64,000 nt of DNA, taken from NCBI RefSeq assembly GCF_028693135.1, contig NZ_JAQUVZ010000005.1, forward strand, positions 62,001-126,000. The letters run 5' to 3'. Under the pieces are notes generated by a model. That model had not been told where the DNA came from. It did no database searches and was given only the letters and a program-made list of their open reading frames with translations. The translations under genes were made by a program, and so were the position numbers. Positions within the stretch are counted from its first letter, which is position 1. Each line of letters opens with the position of its first letter. This document shows, piece after piece, positions 23,398 to 34,992 of the stretch. The DNA comes from Methanosarcina sp. (GTDB lineage Archaea; Halobacteriota; Methanosarcinia; Methanosarcinales; Methanosarcinaceae).

Positions 23398-23514
23398 CGT
23401 TTACGATGTAAAGCGGTTTTTCCTGTATAGGAAGAATAAATTCAGGCGCAGAACAAACTATAATCTGGTATGAAATTAAAAATTGATGTTTAAAAAGAGA
23501 AATCCTGTAAATTT

Positions 23515-23641
23515 TTAATAAACTTCCTTTACCCTTCCAACCTGCCCATCCGTTAATTGAACTTTTATTCCATGCGGATAAGTTGAAGAGTTGGTTAAAA
23601 TTCCCTTTACAACGCCCTTGATAATTTTTCCGGTTTTAGAA
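23515..23641 (-). pseudogene. Second, partial ywbE copy
   Basis: The minus strand encodes KTGKIIKGVVKGILTNSSTY then PHGIKVQLTDGQVGRVKEVY, followed by a stop in the same place as the copy at 22066. DNA similarity extends past the stop, from about 23471 (compare 22021). The N-terminal part is missing. The two copies flank the membrane protein as direct repeats about 1.45 kb apart. Confidence 0.65.
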
Positions 23642-23995: not shown

Positions 23996-25483
23996 TCATG
24001 AAGATTTTCTGTTGCGTCTTCTCATCTCCTGAGCTGAAACCCAATTCATGTCCCAAATATTGGACCCATTAATGTATCTAGTTCTTAATATCTCATGGGG
24101 TATTTCTCTTTCAATCTCAAGATGGGGGTAATCTTTAACGTTTGGGATATAGTTTTTTAGGTCAAAATCTACCATTATCACATTTTTATCAGTATAGCCA
24201 CCTATTAAGTTATCCCGGAGAGAGTCACTAAACTTGGAAAATGGTTCTCCTTTTCTAGATGTTGTAAAGAAGATACACTTATCTCGATCTGTAATCGGAA
24301 TTTCTTCATATTCCACTTCTGAGGGATGTAATCTTGCTTCTGTAATATCTGATCTGGGAATACTAAATCCATTTACCTCATTTAGAAGACCAACGTCTGC
24401 AAGTGAAAATTTTAGTAATGGGGATATTAAAAATATTTTATCACTTACTTTTACCATTGCTTCTTTGACTTCAATATGCCCTTCTCCTCTTGCGACTGGA
24501 TAATATGCATCATATGCATCTGTTTCGTCAGTTAGAGGATGGCGTGAAATATAATTAGCTGTTATAAAACTTATAATTTGATAACCATCTTTTTTACAAT
24601 CCCATTCGCTTTGCAAAAAACTATCAATATTTGATAACCAATTTACAGTTTCTTTGCATGCGACAGCTGCATATACTGAAAGAGTTTTCCCTGGTAGAAG
24701 AAAACATTTTACTGCAATTTCAGAGTAGTCATTTGATGGATTTTCTTTACAATTCTTCATTAAGTATTGAACACCCGGTAAGTTATTAGTAATGATATAA
24801 ACTCTATTTACCCATATATTTTTAGACTTTTCATCTCGCATTCTTTCACATATCTCGTGAAAAATATGGTACATCGTTGTTCCAGAATCAATTACAAGGC
24901 AATACTTAATATTATTATTATTATTATTTCTAAAATCAGACTCTATACTATCAAGAGCTGCTTTTGCAAGAATTTTTTTCTCATAATAAAAATGTTTTAT
25001 TCTTTTTCCATAAACAGATCCTACGTAAGTTGCCCCAGTTTCATCCATGAATCTGTCTAACCATGTTGGATCATCAATTATCCTTTTTGAAATGTCTCTA
25101 GAAATGTCGTTAGTAATATTTTGCACTTCGCTTAAAGTATGGGTTTTGAATTTATGTTCTGTTTCCAAAAACTCTAAATTTTTAGTAGATATTTGTCTCT
25201 CAATTTCGGATTGTTCCTTCTTGATGTTATAAATCTGAAGAGATAGATCAGTATAATTTGATTGTTCTTTCAATGATTCTAGTTTAGTAGTAGAAATTTC
25301 TTTCTCAATCTCTGCCAGATCCATCTCAAGAATAGATTGTTTTTCCTTTAACTCATAAATTTTTATTGTATAGTATATGACGATAATAGCAACTATTATA
25401 GCTGAGATGTCCATCTGTGAAATATTAATCTGGGAAATATCAAATTGTGGGATATCAAACTGTGGAACACCCATGTAACTCAT
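23996..25483 (-). CDS. Membrane-anchored protein with DeoR-C-like sensor domain
   Basis: About 495 residues. The order is a short repeat (PQFDIPQFDISQINISQMDIS), one membrane helix (AIIVAIIVIYYTIKIY), a coiled coil of about 65 residues, then a region closely following the DeoR C-terminal sensor fold: KKILAKAALDSIESDF, CLVIDSGTTMYHIFHEI, VYIITNNLPGVQYLM, FLLPGKTLSVYAAVA, ISFITANYIS, and EVKEAMVKVSDKIFLISPLL. A further domain of about 150 residues ends the protein. DeoR regulators carry an N-terminal DNA-binding helix-turn-helix; none is present here. The start is ATG 25483 or 25474. It lies about 930 bases from the divergent hsdR. A membrane-located ligand sensor in defence is my inference. 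Confidence 0.7.
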   Translation of the reverse strand: MSYMGVPQFDIPQFDISQINISQMDISAIIVAIIVIYYTIKIYELKEKQSILEMDLAEIEKEISTTKLESLKEQSNYTDLSLQIYNIKKEQSEIERQISTKNLEFLETEHKFKTHTLSEVQNITNDISRDISKRIIDDPTWLDRFMDETGATYVGSVYGKRIKHFYYEKKILAKAALDSIESDFRNNNNNNIKYCLVIDSGTTMYHIFHEICERMRDEKSKNIWVNRVYIITNNLPGVQYLMKNCKENPSNDYSEIAVKCFLLPGKTLSVYAAVACKETVNWLSNIDSFLQSEWDCKKDGYQIISFITANYISRHPLTDETDAYDAYYPVARGEGHIEVKEAMVKVSDKIFLISPLLKFSLADVGLLNEVNGFSIPRSDITEARLHPSEVEYEEIPITDRDKCIFFTTSRKGEPFSKFSDSLRDNLIGGYTDKNVIMVDFDLKNYIPNVKDYPHLEIEREIPHEILRTRYINGSNIWDMNWVSAQEMRRRNRKSS

Positions 25484-25522
25484 CTCAACACTTAATTTTC
25501 TGTAACAACTTAAATTGGACAA

Positions 25523-26409
25523 AAAAATTGATGATACTATTTATTCACTTCTTGAAGCAAATTTCTTTGATATTATTATAGTTTATATAGTAAAGCTAAA
25601 CCAAAAGAATAAAGTTACAGAATCAAACTATTTTAAAAGTCGATCCGTTTTTATAATTTACATAATATATATTAATATAAAATTAATTGAAATCTAAATT
25701 TCGACCTAATTGCCTATATACTTGAAGTTAACCTTACTTATTGTTCAATAGTAAATTCAAATCTGATTTTGAGACCACCTGATATAAGAATTCTTACGGC
25801 ATCTAAACAAATTTCGTAGTAATTCTCAAGTTACTGATTCTCTTGTCTGACTAAGTAATAGCATAGTCTCTTTTACAGAAAACTATATATGGACCAATTA
25901 TTTGTCGATTACGAATAAATCTATATCTTTGACAAAGTAGCTTTTTTAAAACTGATAAAAGAGATACACAAGTCATTATGTACAGTCTATATAAAATTTA
26001 TGATTTGATATCAAATAATATATAAAAGGAATTTTCTTTTATATTCGTGAATTTTTGTCTTGAGCTCATTCCAAAACTAATTTTATTCTCAAATCAAAAG
26101 TTTCAGAACAGTTTTCATGATCTGAAACTCAATTAATTCTCAAAATATAAGATTTAAATAATCGATTTTGAGTTTTGGGATCAGCTCATTATATGGTTAA
26201 ATATTAAATTTTAATTTAAAGAGAACTATCCCGCTCGTGAAGCGACTTTTTCTTTGCCAAAAAGAATGCACAGAATAAATTATACTTAAAAAATTATGAT
26301 TATAGCATTAAAAACAATACAAAAACTCCAACTTATTTATACAAATAAATAGATATGTGATAAAGTTTAGCTTCCCATAACAAAAGCCCACTAATTATGA
26401 TGATGCACA
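25523..26409. other. Long divergent AT-rich intergenic region
   Basis: Nearly 890 bases between the DeoR-C-like gene and hsdR, strongly AT-rich and without a convincing gene. A 60-codon frame at 25515 has no SD and biased composition, so I leave it out. Promoters of both flanking genes should lie here. Confidence 0.6.
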
Positions 26410-29091
26410 ATGGTTGACCTCAATGAATCTGAAACGCGGAAAAAGCTCATAAATCCAATGCTTGTTGCTGCAGGGTGGGATATCGTTTCCTACGATAAGA
26501 CTAAAGAGCAAAAGGATTACAATAAATGTGCGATAAAGGAATATCCTACTGAGTCTGGACCAGCAGATTATGCGCTTTGTGTGGGGGGAAAAATCCTCGG
26601 AATCGTTGAGGCAAAGAAGGTAAAGTCTGGTACACAGAGTGTTTTAACGCAGGCTGAAAGATATTCACGCGGACTTCCTGATAATCCATTCAATTTTAAC
26701 GGGTACAGAGTTCCTTTTTTATATTCCACAAACGGAAAAGAGATCCGTCATCATGATGTTCGTCATGCTCTTAGCCGTTCGAGACAAATATCCGGGTTTC
26801 ATACGCATGAGGCTCTGGTTGAGAAGTTAAATTATGACTTTGAAGAGAGAAGTACCAAATTTTTTGATATACCTGATAACACAAGAATGAGACCATATCA
26901 GTGTGAGGCCTGTGATGCTATAGGGCATGCTATTGCTGATCGGAAACGGACAATGCTGGTTGCAATGGCTACCGGAACCGGGAAGACGTTTACGACTGTC
27001 AATCTCATTTACCGTTTAATGAAGGCAGGGGTTGCAAAAAGAGTCCTGTTTCTTGTTGACAGGAGAGCGCTTGCTGCACAGGCTGTCAGGGCTTTTTCAT
27101 CTTTTGAAACCGAGCAGGGGTTGAAATTTGATAAAACCTATGAGGTTTACAGCCAGCGGTTTCAAAGAGGCGACCTGGATGAAAATGAATCTTTTGATTC
27201 AAATTTGATCCCTGAAGTTTACCTCACAGCCCCAAAGCCAGAGCACAGCTTTGTGTACGTGTCCACAATCCAGCGGATGTCCATTAACCTGTTTGGAAAA
27301 GGCTCTGTAATATCATGCAGTGACGAGACAGAGGATGAGGACGCAGGTAAACTCGATATTCCGATACACGCTTTTGACCTTATCATAGCTGACGAATGCC
27401 ACAGGGGTTATTCTGCACAGGAAGTTTCAGTGTGGAGAGACACTCTTGATCATTTTGATGCCATCAAAGTAGGGCTAACGGCCACGCCTGCTGCTCATAC
27501 TTCCGCATACTTTGGAGATCCTGTTTACAAGTACGGTTATGAACAGGCTGTTCGAGATGGATATCTGGTTGATTATGATATTGTTGGAGTGGAATCCGGC
27601 GTCCGCATGAATGGAATATTCCTTCGTGAAGGGGAAATGGTCGGGGTTATAGATTCTGAAACCGGGCAAAGTAAAATAGACATGCTTGAAGACGAACGTG
27701 AGTTCTCAGCTGAGAAGATTGAGAAGGAAATCACAAATATTGATTCTAACAAGAAAATCCTTCAAGAGATCAAACGTTATGCTGAAGAGCATGAAGAAAG
27801 ATACGGACGTTTCCCAAAAACTCTGATTTTTGCCGTGCAGGACCTGGCAAATTCTTCATCTCATGCTGACCAGATAGTTGATCTGGCAAGAGATATCTTT
27901 GGCAGAGGAGATTCGTTCGTCCAGAAGATTACAGGCAAAGTTGACCGTCCTTTGCAAAGAATCAGGGAGTTCAGAAACAGAAAAGAGCCGGGAATTGCAG
28001 TAACTGTTGATCTTCTATCAACTGGGGTTGATGTTCCGGATATTGAATATATTGTGTTTTTGAGATCTGTTAAGTCCCGTATTCTTTTTGAACAGATGAT
28101 TGGACGCGGTACACGCAAAGGGGAACATTATCCAGATAAGTCACATTTTGTTGTTTTTGACTGCTTTGGTGGAACCCTTTTTGATTATTTCAAAGGGGTT
28201 ACCGGTGTGACAGCTGAACCGCCCAAAAAGGAAGTAAAACCTGTAAAAAAGGTTATTGAGGATATCTGGAATAACCGGGACAGGGCTTACAATGTACGTG
28301 TCCTGACAAAACGGCTCAACAGAATTGATAAGGAAATGAGCGGGGAAGCTCGGGACATGTTCAGCGCTTTTGTAGAAAAGGGCGATTTGAACCGTTTTGC
28401 AATCTCGCTTGAAAGGCACCTTTCAGAGGACTTCACAGGAACTATGGAAACCCTGAGGAATCCTGACTTTTTGAATCTGCTTGAGAATTATCCCAGACCA
28501 CCAAAAACCTTCCTTGTGGATTATGCAATAAGGGATGTGATTTCATCCACCTGGATAGTGAGGGATGCTTCAGGTAATGAGTATAAACCGAAAGATTATC
28601 TGAGTATTTTTTCCGAATTTGTAAAAGAGAATTCTGAAAAGATTGCTGCAATCGGTATTCTTCTTGATCGTCCTCAGGACTGGAGTACGGATGCTCTTGG
28701 AGAGTTGAAAGAGAAGCTTGAATCTTCCCAGCAGCGGTTTACTATTGAGAACCTGCAGAGAGCCCATAAGGTAAGTTACAACAAGGCGCTCGTGGATATT
28801 ATTTCGATGATCAAACACGCTGCTCATGAAGAAGAGACACTCTTGACGGCTGAAGAGCGTGTTAGCCTTGCTTTTGACAAAGTAACCGTGGGAAAACATT
28901 TTACACCTGATCAGCATTTATGGCTTGACCGCATCAGGTCGCATTTGATTGCAAACCTCTCTATTGATAAAGAGGACTTTGAATTAATTCCTGTGTTTTC
29001 CGATTACGGTGGATGGAATAAGGCTAACCGTGTTTTTGAAGGCCAGCTTTCAACTTTGATTTCAGAATTTAATAGGGCAGTTGCAGCATGA
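26410..29091 (+). CDS. hsdR: Type I restriction enzyme, motor/nuclease subunit R
   Basis: 893 residues of EcoEI type. The N-terminal PD-(D/E)xK nuclease is visible at PADYALCVGGKILGIVEAKK. The SF2 helicase motor follows: Walker A VAMATGTGKTFT, DEAH-type ADECHRGYS, VGLTATPA, and motif VI FEQMIGRGTRKG. The C-terminal part is the EcoEI_R-like helical domain that docks to the methylase. Its stop overlaps the hsdM start by 4 bases, so R, M and S form one operon. All key residues are present, so the enzyme should cut unmodified DNA. Confidence 0.95.
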   Translation: MVDLNESETRKKLINPMLVAAGWDIVSYDKTKEQKDYNKCAIKEYPTESGPADYALCVGGKILGIVEAKKVKSGTQSVLTQAERYSRGLPDNPFNFNGYRVPFLYSTNGKEIRHHDVRHALSRSRQISGFHTHEALVEKLNYDFEERSTKFFDIPDNTRMRPYQCEACDAIGHAIADRKRTMLVAMATGTGKTFTTVNLIYRLMKAGVAKRVLFLVDRRALAAQAVRAFSSFETEQGLKFDKTYEVYSQRFQRGDLDENESFDSNLIPEVYLTAPKPEHSFVYVSTIQRMSINLFGKGSVISCSDETEDEDAGKLDIPIHAFDLIIADECHRGYSAQEVSVWRDTLDHFDAIKVGLTATPAAHTSAYFGDPVYKYGYEQAVRDGYLVDYDIVGVESGVRMNGIFLREGEMVGVIDSETGQSKIDMLEDEREFSAEKIEKEITNIDSNKKILQEIKRYAEEHEERYGRFPKTLIFAVQDLANSSSHADQIVDLARDIFGRGDSFVQKITGKVDRPLQRIREFRNRKEPGIAVTVDLLSTGVDVPDIEYIVFLRSVKSRILFEQMIGRGTRKGEHYPDKSHFVVFDCFGGTLFDYFKGVTGVTAEPPKKEVKPVKKVIEDIWNNRDRAYNVRVLTKRLNRIDKEMSGEARDMFSAFVEKGDLNRFAISLERHLSEDFTGTMETLRNPDFLNLLENYPRPPKTFLVDYAIRDVISSTWIVRDASGNEYKPKDYLSIFSEFVKENSEKIAAIGILLDRPQDWSTDALGELKEKLESSQQRFTIENLQRAHKVSYNKALVDIISMIKHAAHEEETLLTAEERVSLAFDKVTVGKHFTPDQHLWLDRIRSHLIANLSIDKEDFELIPVFSDYGGWNKANRVFEGQLSTLISEFNRAVAA

Positions 29092-30512
29092 GCGATATTG
29101 TACAGAAATTATGGGGTTTTTGCCATACTTTACGGCATGAAGGTATCGATTACGGAGACTACATCGAACAAATTACATACCTGCTTTTTTTGAAGATGGC
29201 AGATGAGCGGGAAATTGAACTCCCTGACGCCTGCGACTGGCAATCCCTGAAAAAAATGTCAGGAACCGAACTCACAGAGCATTATACCGATTTGCTGAGG
29301 ACGCTTGGAAAAGAAGAGGGTCTCCTTGGCGACATCTTTGCCGGGGCTCTATCTCGTTTTCACAACCCTGTGAGCCTTAAAAAGATCATTACCCTTATCG
29401 ATGAAACCGAATGGACAGGGCTTGATATTGATGTCAAAGCTGAGGCTTTTGAAGGGCTTCTGGAAAAAGCGGCAAGTGAAGGCAAAAAAGGTGCCGGACA
29501 GTACTTTACCCCCAGGATTGTAATCCAGTCAATAGTAAGGTGCACAAAACCCGATCCCCGAAGCCACCGGGATTTTACAATTATAGACCCTGCATGCGGA
29601 ACAGGCGGTTTTCTTGTCTGTGCCTATGAATGGCTGAAAACTATAACCGCAGGCGGAGCCCTTGACCGCGACCTTGCAAAACTCATCCGCTACAGCACCT
29701 ATTTCGGGCAGGAACTTGTGGAACGCCCGCGCAGGCTTGCCCTTATGAACCTCTATCTGCACGGGATTGAACCCGAAATCAAACTCGGAGATTCCATCTA
29801 TGAACTTCCGGAGTCGAAGCGGTTTGATGTGGTGCTTACAAATCCCCCTTTCGGGACAAAAGGCGCAAACCAGGCTCCTGTCCGTGAGGATTTTGTTATC
29901 GAAACCTCAAACAAGCAGCTCAATTTCGTCCAGCACGTCATGACAATCTTAAAACCCGGCGGCAGAGCCGCAATTGTCGTCCCTGACAATGTGCTTTTTG
30001 CCGACCAGGCAGGCGAGGTTTTCAAGGTGCTCTGTGAAGATTGCGATCTCCACACTGTCCTGCGTCTTCCGGACGGCACCTTCACCCCATATTCCCCCGG
30101 CACCAAAACAAACGTGATCTTCTTCACAAAAGGCATCCCCACAGACCACACCTGGGTCTACGACTGCCGGACCAATGTCCCGAAGATCACCAAAAAAGAC
30201 CGCCCACTCACAAAAGAACACTTTGCAGAATTTGAAAAGTGCTTCGGCTCCGACCCCAACGGCAGGGCAAAACGCGACGAAAAAGACTCTCAGGAAGACC
30301 GCTGGCACACCTTCCATATCTCCGAACTCAAAGCCCGTGACTACAAAATCGACTCCCTGAAGTGGCTCCGGGACGATTCCTTAAGCGACACCGACGACCT
30401 GCCCGATCCTGAAGAGCTTGCAGCGGAGGCAATTGATGAGCTTGAAGCGGCGGTGGGTGAACTAAATGCTATTCTTGATTTGATGGGGAATGGGTATGCA
30501 GCAGAAGAGTGA
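29088..30512 (+). CDS. hsdM: Type I DNA adenine methyltransferase subunit M
   Basis: 474 residues. The N-terminal helical domain (LWGFCHTLRHEGIDYGDYIE, YLLFLKMADE) precedes the N6-adenine methylase with SAM-binding motif IDPACGTGGFLV and catalytic NPPFGTKG. Complexed with HsdS it methylates the host recognition site. It overlaps both hsdR and hsdS. Confidence 0.95.
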   Translation: MSDIVQKLWGFCHTLRHEGIDYGDYIEQITYLLFLKMADEREIELPDACDWQSLKKMSGTELTEHYTDLLRTLGKEEGLLGDIFAGALSRFHNPVSLKKIITLIDETEWTGLDIDVKAEAFEGLLEKAASEGKKGAGQYFTPRIVIQSIVRCTKPDPRSHRDFTIIDPACGTGGFLVCAYEWLKTITAGGALDRDLAKLIRYSTYFGQELVERPRRLALMNLYLHGIEPEIKLGDSIYELPESKRFDVVLTNPPFGTKGANQAPVREDFVIETSNKQLNFVQHVMTILKPGGRAAIVVPDNVLFADQAGEVFKVLCEDCDLHTVLRLPDGTFTPYSPGTKTNVIFFTKGIPTDHTWVYDCRTNVPKITKKDRPLTKEHFAEFEKCFGSDPNGRAKRDEKDSQEDRWHTFHISELKARDYKIDSLKWLRDDSLSDTDDLPDPEELAAEAIDELEAAVGELNAILDLMGNGYAAEE

Positions 30513-31917
30513 ACTGCCTGAGGGATGGGGGCTTGTTTCACTTGGAGAGTTGGTTACACCTTCAAAAGAAAAAATAGAACCATCAGAGAATCCCACTTTA
30601 AAATATATTGGATTGGAACATATCGAATCACATAAATGTCAAATAAACGGATATGGGGTTGCCGGAGATATAAAAAGTACAAAAACAGTATTTAGTAGAG
30701 GGGATATTCTCTACGGAAAGCTGCGACCATATTTAAATAAGGTTTGTATACCCGATTTTGAAGGTATTTGTTCAACCGACATTTTGGTATTTAAAGCAAC
30801 TCCAAATCTTGATAATCGTTATTTGATGAGATTTTTATCTACCCCAGAAGTGGTAGATTATGCAAATAACAATTCATCTGGAGTACAATTACCTAGAGTT
30901 AATTTTCAGAAATTATCTAACTGTACCGTTCCTCTTCCTCCACTTGCTGAACAGCATCGCATCGTTTCAGCGATTGAAGCACTTTTCGCCCGTCTGGACG
31001 CAACAAATGAGAAGCTTGACAGGGTGCCGGGAATTTTGAAGAAGTTCAGGCAATCGGTGCTTGCGGCTGCGTGTGATGGAAGATTAACGGAGGCATGGAG
31101 AGAAGAAAATAAACAAAAATTGGGATGCACAGATTTCTTGAATATCTTACCCATTGAAAATTTTGACGCTTATGCGCCAAGCGACTATGATCCAATAATT
31201 CCACAATCGATACCTGAAGAATGGAAGTTGTCTAGATGCCATAATCTCTGTGACAACAATAGAGCAGTGACTTACGGAGTCATAAAACTTGGACAGCCCG
31301 TTGAAGATGGAATTCCAACATTACGCTCATCTGATGTTCGCTGGTTAAAAATCGATAAAAATCACGTTAAGTGTATATCTCCAGAGATTGCATCGAATTA
31401 TTCTCGTACCTTTTTAAAAGGTGGGGAAATTCTAGTAACTGTTCGAGGTACATTAGGAGGAGTTGCTGTTGTTCCCCAAGATATGGCTGGATTTAATATT
31501 TCACGGGAAGTCGCAGTCATTCCATTAATAAGTGGATTAAATAGTCATTTCTTTAGTTACACTATCGCATCCAAATGGAGTCAAAATTGGCTTTCGGAAA
31601 TGACAAAAGGTGTTGCATATACGGGTATCAACATCAAAGATTTGAAAAATTTACCCTTGCCTGTTCCCCCTCTCCCTGAACAACATGAGATAGTCAAGCG
31701 TGTTGATGCCCTCTTTGCCTTTACTGACTCAATTGAAGCAAAAGTTGCAGCGGCAAGAGAAAAAACTGAAAAACTCAGACAATCCATTCTTGCAAAGGTA
31801 TTTTCTGGTGAACTTGTTGAGATAGAGGCTGAGATTGCAAGAAGGGAAGGCAGGGATTATGAGACGGCGAAGGTTTTGATTGAAAAAATAAAAGCAGGGA
31901 AAGGGAAAAAAGAGTAG
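30490..31917 (+). CDS. hsdS: Type I specificity subunit S
   Basis: 475 residues with two target-recognition domains. Each ends in a conserved helical spacer: LPPLAEQHRIVSAIEALFAR with LRQ-like KKFRQSVLAAACDGRLTEAW, and PPLPEQHEIVKRVDALFAFT with KLRQSILAKVFSGELVE. The first recognition domain starts ELPEGWGLVSLGEL, the second IPEEWKLSRCHNL. Two different domains predict a split bipartite site. Start overlaps the end of hsdM by 23 bases. Confidence 0.95.
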   Translation: MGMQQKSELPEGWGLVSLGELVTPSKEKIEPSENPTLKYIGLEHIESHKCQINGYGVAGDIKSTKTVFSRGDILYGKLRPYLNKVCIPDFEGICSTDILVFKATPNLDNRYLMRFLSTPEVVDYANNNSSGVQLPRVNFQKLSNCTVPLPPLAEQHRIVSAIEALFARLDATNEKLDRVPGILKKFRQSVLAAACDGRLTEAWREENKQKLGCTDFLNILPIENFDAYAPSDYDPIIPQSIPEEWKLSRCHNLCDNNRAVTYGVIKLGQPVEDGIPTLRSSDVRWLKIDKNHVKCISPEIASNYSRTFLKGGEILVTVRGTLGGVAVVPQDMAGFNISREVAVIPLISGLNSHFFSYTIASKWSQNWLSEMTKGVAYTGINIKDLKNLPLPVPPLPEQHEIVKRVDALFAFTDSIEAKVAAAREKTEKLRQSILAKVFSGELVEIEAEIARREGRDYETAKVLIEKIKAGKGKKE

Positions 31918-32331: not shown

Positions 32332-32343
32332 TTGGTGATTATT

Positions 32344-32985
32344 TTGCAAGTAGACTCATATGAGCCATATCATATAGGCAGTAAATTGAATCCAGCAACA
32401 AATTTTGATATTCTAAAATCCAGATTAAAAGAAAAATTAGGAGCTGCTGGATATTCAACAAAAAGTGAATCTCAGGATGAAGAGAGCTATTTAATCAAGA
32501 ATCCGATAGAGATCTTGGCAACTAAAAAAAATACAAAGATTGAATTCAACAAAATAGCGCAAGCACTCAATGTTATTGGTACAAAGCCAGAAGATGTGTC
32601 AGAAATATTCAAAGAAATTATGAATATGTTAATTGATTTAGAATATGAAATTGAAAATTTGGTTGTAATTTTCGAAGTTCTTGCAACAATTATCGTAAAA
32701 GCAGATGACAAACCTCTTAACGTTCTAAATCAGACTGTGAGCATAGACAGTAACTCGTTTCCTGTTAAAGATGTGCATAACTGGGGTGTAACTGGTATTC
32801 GACTAGGTGGAGAAAATAGTTTGAAGAATACTTTTTTTAGTGTAATGATTGAGCCAAATCCTACAAGCCAAAATACTAAATTTAGAGCAAAACTGCAGTA
32901 TCAATCAAGAGAAATGGAGAATGTGCAAACATTTTTTGAGAGTCTGGATTTGAAGATTATTACTTTGATGAAACAATTAGGATAA
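32344..32985 (+). CDS. Unrecognised protein, first gene of a three-gene cassette
   Basis: About 213 residues, mixed alpha/beta, no membrane helix. The TTG at 32344 was chosen because GGTG lies six bases before it; an earlier TTG (32332) is possible. The middle helix region is KPEDVSEIFKEIMNMLIDLE, and the C-terminal half is beta-rich (VTGIRLGGENSLKNTFFSVM then FRAKLQYQSREMENVQTFF). It is followed after 4 bases by the next gene. I do not recognise the family. Confidence 0.7.
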   Translation: MQVDSYEPYHIGSKLNPATNFDILKSRLKEKLGAAGYSTKSESQDEESYLIKNPIEILATKKNTKIEFNKIAQALNVIGTKPEDVSEIFKEIMNMLIDLEYEIENLVVIFEVLATIIVKADDKPLNVLNQTVSIDSNSFPVKDVHNWGVTGIRLGGENSLKNTFFSVMIEPNPTSQNTKFRAKLQYQSREMENVQTFFESLDLKIITLMKQLG

Positions 32986-32989
32986 GAGC

Positions 32990-33610
32990 ATGTATTCGAC
33001 TGATATTGCAACGAATAATAACTTTCGCAAAAAATCACGCATTAATACTTTAGATGTCGCACAAAATGTTTTCGGCACGTGCTTAACTGAAAGTGCTTCC
33101 ACTTATTCCACAGATTTTACAGAATATAGTCCAATATCTTTCAAAGATGAAATGAAAGAGTATTTATTACCTCTAAAACAATTAATTAGCCTTATAAAGC
33201 CTCACGAGGATCCTAATACTTCTGCTTACGAAAGTTCTACTATATCTAATTCATTAAATTCTGTAAGTGTCAGTCCAGAAATAAAAGAGATAAAGAATAA
33301 ATATTTCAATAGATTTTTGAATGAAATATTGTCTGAAATATATTTCCAGCTAACTAAATTTGAGCAAAAAGATAATGTTGAGATAAGTGTGCAAATCTCT
33401 AGAGACTTAGAAGTTCCAGATTGGAACGAATTTGTTATTACTATAAAATTACTTTCAATGGATTATATAAGTTATGAAAGATTTTTTGAGTTATGGAAAG
33501 AGATAGATGAAAGTGTAAGAGAAAGAATATATTTAATTAGAGATGTGGATAAAGAGGTTCTCGAAAAATACGGAAAACCTGTAATTGTGTTAGAAGAAGC
33601 TGAAAATTAA
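32990..33610 (+). CDS. Unrecognised protein, second gene of the cassette
   Basis: 206 residues. The first 90 are polar and Ser/Thr/Asn rich, probably flexible. The rest is helical and beta mixed (NKYFNRFLNEILSEIYFQLT, then WNEFVITIKLLSMDYISYER). ATG 32990 has GGATAAGAG just before. Gap to the third gene is about 20 bases, so one transcript is expected. Function unknown. Confidence 0.7.
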   Translation: MYSTDIATNNNFRKKSRINTLDVAQNVFGTCLTESASTYSTDFTEYSPISFKDEMKEYLLPLKQLISLIKPHEDPNTSAYESSTISNSLNSVSVSPEIKEIKNKYFNRFLNEILSEIYFQLTKFEQKDNVEISVQISRDLEVPDWNEFVITIKLLSMDYISYERFFELWKEIDESVRERIYLIRDVDKEVLEKYGKPVIVLEEAEN

Positions 33611-33631
33611 ACTTTATCATTCTTGATTTAC

Positions 33632-33988
33632 ATGCCTTTTGATCCCTGCCTTCTCCTGAGTTTGTCCTCTGCATTATCCGAAGATCCAAACTATGAGGAT
33701 GAGTCAAAGTACAGGACGTCCATAAGTCGGGCTTATTATGCAGCTTTTTTAGTTACAAGAAGCTATCTGGAATCTGCAGGTTACAATTTTCCTCCTGATT
33801 CTAATGTGCACAAAAAAGTAATTGACTATATGAAGAACAAAAATTCCTTTATAAGTAATCTCCTTTTTAGTCTAAGAGATAGAAGAAACAATGCAGATTA
33901 TAATCTGGATGCTCAAATTAAAAAAGGGATTACTATTTCTTCAATAAAGTCTGCACAAATGGTAATAGATGAAATTCGTAAATTGTGA
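33632..33988 (+). CDS. HEPN-domain protein (UPF0332-like)
   Basis: About 118 residues, all helical. The first conserved helix SKYRTSISRAYYAAFLVTRS and the later RDRRNNADYNL fit the UPF0332/HEPN group. The classical RNase motif R-x4-6-H is not seen; instead an R-x4-DY pattern ends the motif, as in several family members. HEPN proteins of this kind work in toxin-antitoxin and defence modules. TTG 33623 is an alternative start three codons upstream. No nucleotidyltransferase lies beside it, so the partner may be one of the two genes before it. Confidence 0.75.
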   Translation: MPFDPCLLLSLSSALSEDPNYEDESKYRTSISRAYYAAFLVTRSYLESAGYNFPPDSNVHKKVIDYMKNKNSFISNLLFSLRDRRNNADYNLDAQIKKGITISSIKSAQMVIDEIRKL

Positions 33989-34071: not shown

Positions 34072-34992
34072 TCAAATATTTAATACTTCCACATTTTCTT
34101 TATGAGCTATATTTCTTGCAATGACTCCACGATGGCACATGTTTATATCTGCTTCAAAACACATTAATGCAACACGGTGGTTTTGGCTTAATTCCACTAT
34201 TTTATCCAGAAGTTTGGGGTTTTCTTTTATTGTGGTTTTCTCGTAGTCCTCAAACAGTTTTTCATAATCTTTGAGGGTAGTAAGGTCTTTTCTTTTTTCT
34301 CCTTCTATCCCAAGTTCGGGGATGTGGAGATATTGAATTCCTGAATTTTCGAGGTAACCTTTAAGCTTATTTTTTGTGAAATTGAACTTCATACTGAAGG
34401 GGTTTTTCCTGACATCTACAAGAATATCTATGGCATTCTGGATTAAGACATTAAGGAAAAAGTCGATGTCTCTTCCTTCATATCCTATAGTGAAGAGGCC
34501 GGGCTCTTGACCAGGTTCTTGTTTTTTCTCTTCTTGAGGGTGAAGAAGTTTACTTTTTACCGTATAATCAGGAAACTTTCGGTATACGTATGCCATAATT
34601 TCTTTATCAGAATCAAACTTCCCAGCAACTCTTTTTATTTTCAGAGTTACCTTCGGGTTCATGCCTTTTAGGAATGTCTTCCCTTTTTCAGTTAATTCAA
34701 ACCGTTTTTCCTGTTCGATAATATAGCCCTCTTTTTGCAGGCTGGAGATATCAGTATAGCATACGTTGGAAAAAGGTCCGTAACTGTAAGGGAAAAAATT
34801 ATAGAATTTTATTAGCTTGTCAATTTTTTCCATATGAGCTAATAAAAAAAGACTCTTCATTATCATGAACCTGGAAGACAAGTCTCGTTCGTGGAGTTTG
34901 TCTATGGTGTAAAGAAGAGCTCTTTGTTTGTGGTTCAGGTTTTTCATTAAATTACCATCAATCTCTTTGTTTATATGCCAGAATATGTTCAT
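34072..34992 (-). CDS. DUF488 protein with N-terminal helical/winged domain
   Basis: 306 residues. Residues 1-105 form a helical domain with FYNFFPYSYGPFSNVCYTDI and an HTH-like segment (LQKEGYIIEQEKRFELTEKG), resembling SocA/Panacea-type domains. From about 165 a DUF488 domain follows: FTIGYEGRDIDFFLNVL, ILVDVRKNPFSMKF, and the C-terminal cysteine motif MCFEADINMCHRGVIA. DUF488 proteins are common in accessory and defence regions and are suspected of base or sugar chemistry; the activity is unknown. ATG 34947 is an alternative start. Confidence 0.75.
   Translation of the reverse strand: MNIFWHINKEIDGNLMKNLNHKQRALLYTIDKLHERDLSSRFMIMKSLFLLAHMEKIDKLIKFYNFFPYSYGPFSNVCYTDISSLQKEGYIIEQEKRFELTEKGKTFLKGMNPKVTLKIKRVAGKFDSDKEIMAYVYRKFPDYTVKSKLLHPQEEKKQEPGQEPGLFTIGYEGRDIDFFLNVLIQNAIDILVDVRKNPFSMKFNFTKNKLKGYLENSGIQYLHIPELGIEGEKRKDLTTLKDYEKLFEDYEKTTIKENPKLLDKIVELSQNHRVALMCFEADINMCHRGVIARNIAHKENVEVLNI

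Follow-up and report, generated by a model that had tools for sequence, protein, structure and literature searches.

A membrane-anchored DeoR-type sensor without a DNA-binding domain in Methanosarcina, and its possible place in archaeal conflict systems

One gene in the 64,000-nucleotide stretch of Methanosarcina DNA analysed here (the window) encodes what appears to be a horizontally acquired, membrane-anchored ligand sensor, in which a long coiled coil joins a membrane helix to a DeoR-type domain at the C terminus. DeoR sensor domains are the sugar-phosphate-reading half of bacterial repressors. With chances that we put at about even, the family to which the window protein belongs serves conflict systems that move horizontally, as a module that senses a ligand, oligomerises and would signal through its N-terminal half. 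The gene is divided as follows.

23996..25483, minus strand: whole gene P0001 including the stop, 495 aa (open frame and homologues)
25406..25465, minus strand: four 5-residue repeats, PQFDI/PQFDI/SQINI/SQMDI, residues 7-26 (read from the translation)
25358..25414, minus strand: single predicted membrane helix, residues 24-42 (Kyte-Doolittle mean 2.02)
25043..25357, minus strand: predicted coiled coil between membrane and sensor, residues 43-147 (composition; homologue model)
24170..25006, minus strand: DeoR-type (ISOCOT-fold) sensor domain with family-specific insertions, residues 160-438 (Pfam, model, structure match, HHalign)
24875..24889, minus strand: DSGTT at the phosphate-loop position of DeoRC, residues 199-203 (alignments)
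23999..24169, minus strand: C-terminal tail beyond the sensor fold, residues 439-495 (homologue alignment, models)

Judged from its relatives, 23996-25483 is a real gene, because three independent homologues exist, with 28-46% identity over the core. An ATG lies at 25483, and the mechanically called ORF reaches further upstream, to a TTG at 25522. The gene is AT-richer than its surroundings (31.7% GC versus 40.7% for the window).

The N-terminal part of the protein (residues 1-147) consists of the short repeat, the membrane helix and the coiled coil. No other 19-residue stretch of the protein is as hydrophobic as this helix. Homologue L004 is laid out alike, with one predicted membrane helix (Kyte-Doolittle mean 2.21), while no such hydrophobic helix is found by Kyte-Doolittle in the L003 and G020 proteins. 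In a structure model of a homologue, the coiled-coil part forms one continuous helix of about 100 residues. An internal duplication was suspected within the coiled coil, but the similarity is within chance. The helix-turn-helix typical of DeoR-family transcription regulators is absent from the N terminus, and Pfam gives no match to any HTH family in the protein. The translation, the hydropathy and this lack of an HTH match all bear out the earlier note, which had seen a repeat, a membrane helix and a coiled coil in place of the DNA-binding domain. Pfam likewise detects no NB-ARC/STAND NTPase in the window protein; among the family members only the G020 homologue has one. PADLOC holds no model for the window protein, its only match being a weak one in the coiled coil (E 0.014), and neither Pfam nor PADLOC reports CARF or SAVED in it.

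That the C-terminal domain has the DeoR-type sensor fold is near certain, since two separately predicted members of the family both find E. coli DeoR as their best match and a profile comparison agrees. The core of the window protein (residues 148-495, modelled from a four-sequence alignment; pLDDT 71.5, pTM 0.78) matches the E. coli DeoR sensor 7l6l with Z 14.4 and rmsd 2.7 over 181 of 183 residues, the next-best match being an RpiA with Z 8.7. The most distant homologue, modelled separately and at full length, again has 7l6l first (Z 15.4, 182/183 residues; next 11.0). Both models rest on four sequences, hence on shallow alignments, and their pLDDT values are 71.5 and 65.5. HHalign of the family profile against five genuine DeoR-family regulators (DeoR, AgaR, UlaR, SrlR and one further DeoR) gives a probability of 92.7 and E 4.3e-7, and aligns EKK..AK, DSGTT, TNNLPG, LLPG and K358 of the window protein with the regulators. 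Pfam DeoRC (PF00455) is matched at residues 168-244 with E = 0.002 and 18.6 bits, under the cut-off of 31.8; L003 matches it independently (E = 0.005), also under the curated cut-off. Foldseek adds RpiA, NagB and 6-phosphogluconolactonase, which belong to the same superfamily. A structural search that lists DeoR, RpiA and related folds does not alone exclude CARF/SAVED folds. A sequence search of the PDB returned chance matches only, and a fold search of BFVD no significant match.

The family shares with DeoR-family regulators the sensor fold over its whole length, the DxGTT loop, in which D199, G201, T202 and T203 are invariant in all members, the TNN motif at the strand end, the GG/PG turn and the lysine of the DxSK motif. 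It departs from them in scoring below the Pfam cut-off, in its large insertions, in its C-terminal tail, where E460, P462 and H463 are invariant, and in the DxSK aspartate, which is proline in all four members. The window protein further differs in having a membrane helix and a coiled coil instead of an HTH. The proposal of a membrane-tethered DeoR-C-like sensor devoid of a DNA-binding domain is thus upheld by two structure predictions and by motif conservation, the isomerase-like fold being present with DeoR as its closest match. The extent given earlier needs correction: the fold reaches to about residue 438, so that only about 57 residues (439-495) follow it, not about 150.

What argues for a conflict role is the company of the core, since each homologue is fused to or adjoins NB-ARC/HD-CE, a defence-type nitrilase, or a GHMP kinase with an EEP enzyme. 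In G020, a single frame of 953 aa contains HD-CE (6.5e-23), NB-ARC (2.2e-10) and, last, the sensor core, which occupies the place of the C-terminal sensor of a STAND protein. The Walker motifs (GQEGIGKT, LLIFDD) and the HD motifs of this protein read as intact. No paper in the open-licence literature was found under the name 'HD-CE'.

In G007, a gene for a TPR-nitrilase ends 42 bp upstream of the sensor gene. The nitrilase matches the PADLOC models CARF_m7-CARF_nitrilase (1.1e-85) and RT_UG5-nitrilase (7e-17), and its E-K-C catalytic residues are visible in the sequence. Its family occurs in 25 of the 186 genomes of the order, where relatives are fused to a reverse transcriptase (L040), to CARF (L044) or to HEAT repeats (L037, L038, L043), or lie beside a predicted ATPase (L039/L061). 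Taken by itself, this one nitrilase family looks like an exchangeable effector in Methanosarcinales, found in RT, CARF, HEAT and TPR fusions or with an adjoining ATPase (L040, L042, L044, L037, L038, L043, L061).

In G180, a GHMP-family kinase gene is followed by an EEP phosphoesterase gene and then by a membrane-anchored sensor. The same two genes, kinase and EEP, are again paired in G087 (53% and 48% identity), in which no sensor gene was found. A close homologue of the kinase is present in only G180 and G087 among 186 genomes, implying that the pair travels together. As an observation apart from the sensor, the direct succession of a GHMP-family kinase gene and an EEP gene (L007:6166-9456 and L060:3318-5764) is a conserved arrangement, rarely seen and shared by two distant archaea. 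The EEP enzyme in L007 also holds a dispersed protein module (..YLFSWDEIPGNDxxRLIEFL..IDWxxxAKIxK..KTIxI..DEK..LKIxD.R..DLxVxxENGKLNIY..) that sits as an in-frame insertion in archaeal proteins unrelated to one another. Its hosts include, besides the EEP enzyme, a TPR protein and a protein resembling the DNA primase large subunit; among its many loci are L007:7513-9456 (residues ~135-420), L054:235-1872, L056:496-2289 and L057:1327-2442. It is found in 69 of the 186 genomes of the order, often several times per genome, and is missing from the EEP homologue of G087. The module looks like a mobile in-frame protein element.

The family is very sporadic. Counting the window genome, the core is carried by 4 of the 238 genomes of the class, the three homologues being those of G020, G007 and G180; two of them belong to draft assemblies, 87% complete and with ~5% contamination. 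Searches of the order, the class and a sample of the phylum yielded no further members, and a pattern scan of the genome collection with the conserved motifs returned only G020 and G180. No relatives were found in phages, plasmids or viral contigs. The sole plasmid match, a weak one (E 0.1), is to a genuine DeoR/GlpR regulator, in keeping with the assigned fold.

The sites themselves look mobile. The relative G004 has an empty site: the sequences that flank the window gene on either side are separated there by 166 bp, against about 2.98 kb in the window. In G180, the gene row is bordered on one side by an intact phosphomutase gene and on the other by a remnant of 148 residues, 72% identical to the C-terminal part of that phosphomutase. 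In G007, the sensor gene is followed by a DDE transposase gene. A different dispersed repeat lies on either side of the window gene:

23509..23637, unstranded: intergenic repeat of dispersed type, at lower coordinates than the gene (comparison of relatives)
26060..26189, unstranded: a second kind of dispersed repeat, also intergenic, at higher coordinates (tens of copies in each Methanosarcina genome)

Sporadic presence, AT-richness, the empty site, the phosphomutase remnant and the transposase together make horizontal acquisition of the window gene, and horizontal movement of the family, the best reading.

How such a sensor might work can be outlined. The sensor domain would bind a small phosphorylated metabolite, either a sugar phosphate or a nucleotide-like compound. 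Binding of this ligand, or its loss, during infection or stress would alter the oligomeric state of the protein, and the N-terminal helix would relay this change to the N-terminal module. In the relatives, this module would be a STAND ATPase paired with an HD phosphohydrolase, or else the sensor would act on a separately encoded nitrilase or phosphoesterase. As homologues of the nitrilase, EEP and GHMP partners are all missing from the window genome, and no effector adjoins the window gene, the output of the window copy may lie at the membrane, which would be perturbed as by CARF-TM or SAVED-TM effectors, or may depend on recruiting an unlinked partner. That the window protein is a membrane effector in the strict sense seems doubtful.

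In such a scheme, the DeoR-type domain would fill the role played by CARF, SAVED or STAND C-terminal sensors in prokaryotic conflict systems. The CARF/SAVED effectors of type III CRISPR and CBASS, including TM-fused and CARF-nitrilase forms, likewise combine a Rossmann-like ligand sensor with interchangeable effectors (nitrilase, HD, TM helix), and the nitrilase partner in G007 is of the same family as that of CARF-nitrilase. Here, however, the sensor fold is of the DeoR type, and no linkage to CRISPR or to a cyclase was seen. STAND/NLR-like conflict proteins (Kaur et al., PMC7159879, PMC8195603), which combine NB-ARC with an effector at the N terminus and a sensor at the C terminus, resemble the G020 homologue, in which the core follows an HD-CE effector and NB-ARC, whereas the window protein lacks the NTPase. 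Conflict systems of the NB-ARC/STAND type have been reported in Methanosarcina mazei (PMC7159879). A DeoR-type sensor is mentioned in neither of these two papers, nor was one found in conflict systems elsewhere in the open-licence literature. The nitrilase domain of DRT1, an abortive-infection effector (PMC13275509), is related to that encoded beside the G007 homologue and is the killing part of its system; in DRT1 a reverse transcriptase controls the nitrilase, a part that in G007 presumably falls to the DeoR-type sensor.

The main alternative is a membrane-bound metabolic sensor that, on binding a sugar phosphate, would control a transporter, a kinase or a gene-expression factor by protein contact, with no part in conflict. 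In its favour, sugar phosphates are the classical ligands of DeoRC domains, the G180 row includes a gene for a GHMP-family kinase, and every copy has metabolic genes in its wider surroundings. Indeed, the wider neighbours of the homologues are housekeeping or metabolic genes rather than defence islands, so that the contexts are metabolic at a distance, whereas the immediate partners are not. Against a conflict role it also counts that only four members are known, that the window copy stands without any of the partners, that the DxSK aspartate is replaced in every member and that no phage, plasmid or viral-contig match ties the family to conflict with viruses. Nevertheless, purely metabolic sensing fits poorly with the presence of the core in so few genomes, with the mobile-looking sites and with the conflict-type partners (NB-ARC/HD-CE, defence-type nitrilase), and a transporter or catabolic operon lies beside none of the copies. 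We consider it improbable, if worth keeping in mind.

A defence role, in turn, is plausible. A bolder and distinctly tentative proposal is that the family represents a new class of prokaryotic immune sensor, in which a DeoR-type domain reads a phosphorylated metabolite linked to infection and switches interchangeable outputs (membrane helix, STAND ATPase with HD phosphohydrolase, nitrilase, EEP phosphoesterase). In one lineage, the metabolite would perhaps be set by a dedicated GHMP kinase of the same row. If this is true, a metabolite-sensing fold joins the list of prokaryotic immune sensors, and some archaea may recognise infection from a shift in phosphorylated metabolites. The importance of the case lies in the occurrence of a DeoR sensor domain stripped of its DNA-binding part in an NB-ARC/HD-CE protein, next to a CARF-type nitrilase and on a membrane anchor. 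Three concrete systems are available for expression and testing.

A second alternative takes the protein for an enzyme, a diverged one with the RpiA/NagB/CoA-transferase fold, whose substrate at the membrane would be a nucleotide or a sugar phosphate. The fold is indeed common to RpiA (ribose-5-phosphate isomerase A), NagB and 6-phosphogluconolactonase. Comparison with the RpiA profile is not significant (E 0.59), yet it aligns the RpiA KGGG loop with ARGEGH of the window protein, and a family-specific AR-x-x-GH motif is conserved at this position; the E/PH motif of the tail could supply catalytic residues. The residues of the RpiA DGADxID motif have catalytic roles. In the alignment, the acidic pair of RpiA DGADQID falls opposite ITANYI, MSANYI, TSASYV and ITGNWI, and the conserved acidic catalytic residues of the RpiA/NagB type are thus present in none of the four members. 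This makes known isomerase chemistry unlikely in the family, as far as aligned residues can tell. The non-catalytic DeoR sensor is moreover the best structural match, by 4-6 Z units. An enzyme is for these reasons a poor candidate, and the AR-x-x-GH motif may instead shape a different ligand site.

As the earlier note had remarked, a type I RM operon adjoins the gene; it is a genuine type I system, and its start lies 926 bp from the window gene, which is divergently transcribed:

26410-31917, plus strand: type I RM operon hsdR, hsdM, hsdS

That the protein is an accessory of this operon, as its position 926 bp from hsdR on the opposite strand might suggest, is largely refuted and very improbable, since hsdRMS occurs without the gene in G004, G007 and G012 (85-90% nucleotide identity), none of the three homologues lies near an RM system, and the divergent gene is separately flanked by dispersed repeats. 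The adjacency thus appears incidental. It had been the ground for a defence reading, and on that ground the reading fails; through the fused or adjacent partners of the homologues it gains support, though it is still unproven.

Two further loci downstream of the RM operon may be mentioned in their own right. Three consecutive plus-strand ORFs at 32332-33988 include a HEPN protein (E 1.3e-6), the other two having no significant family match in Pfam, and possibly form a toxin-antitoxin or defence unit. At 34072-34992, a DUF488 protein with an N-terminal extension matches the PADLOC candidate defence family PDC-M19A (4.4e-89), and similar DNA is also found near the RM operon in G004 and G007.
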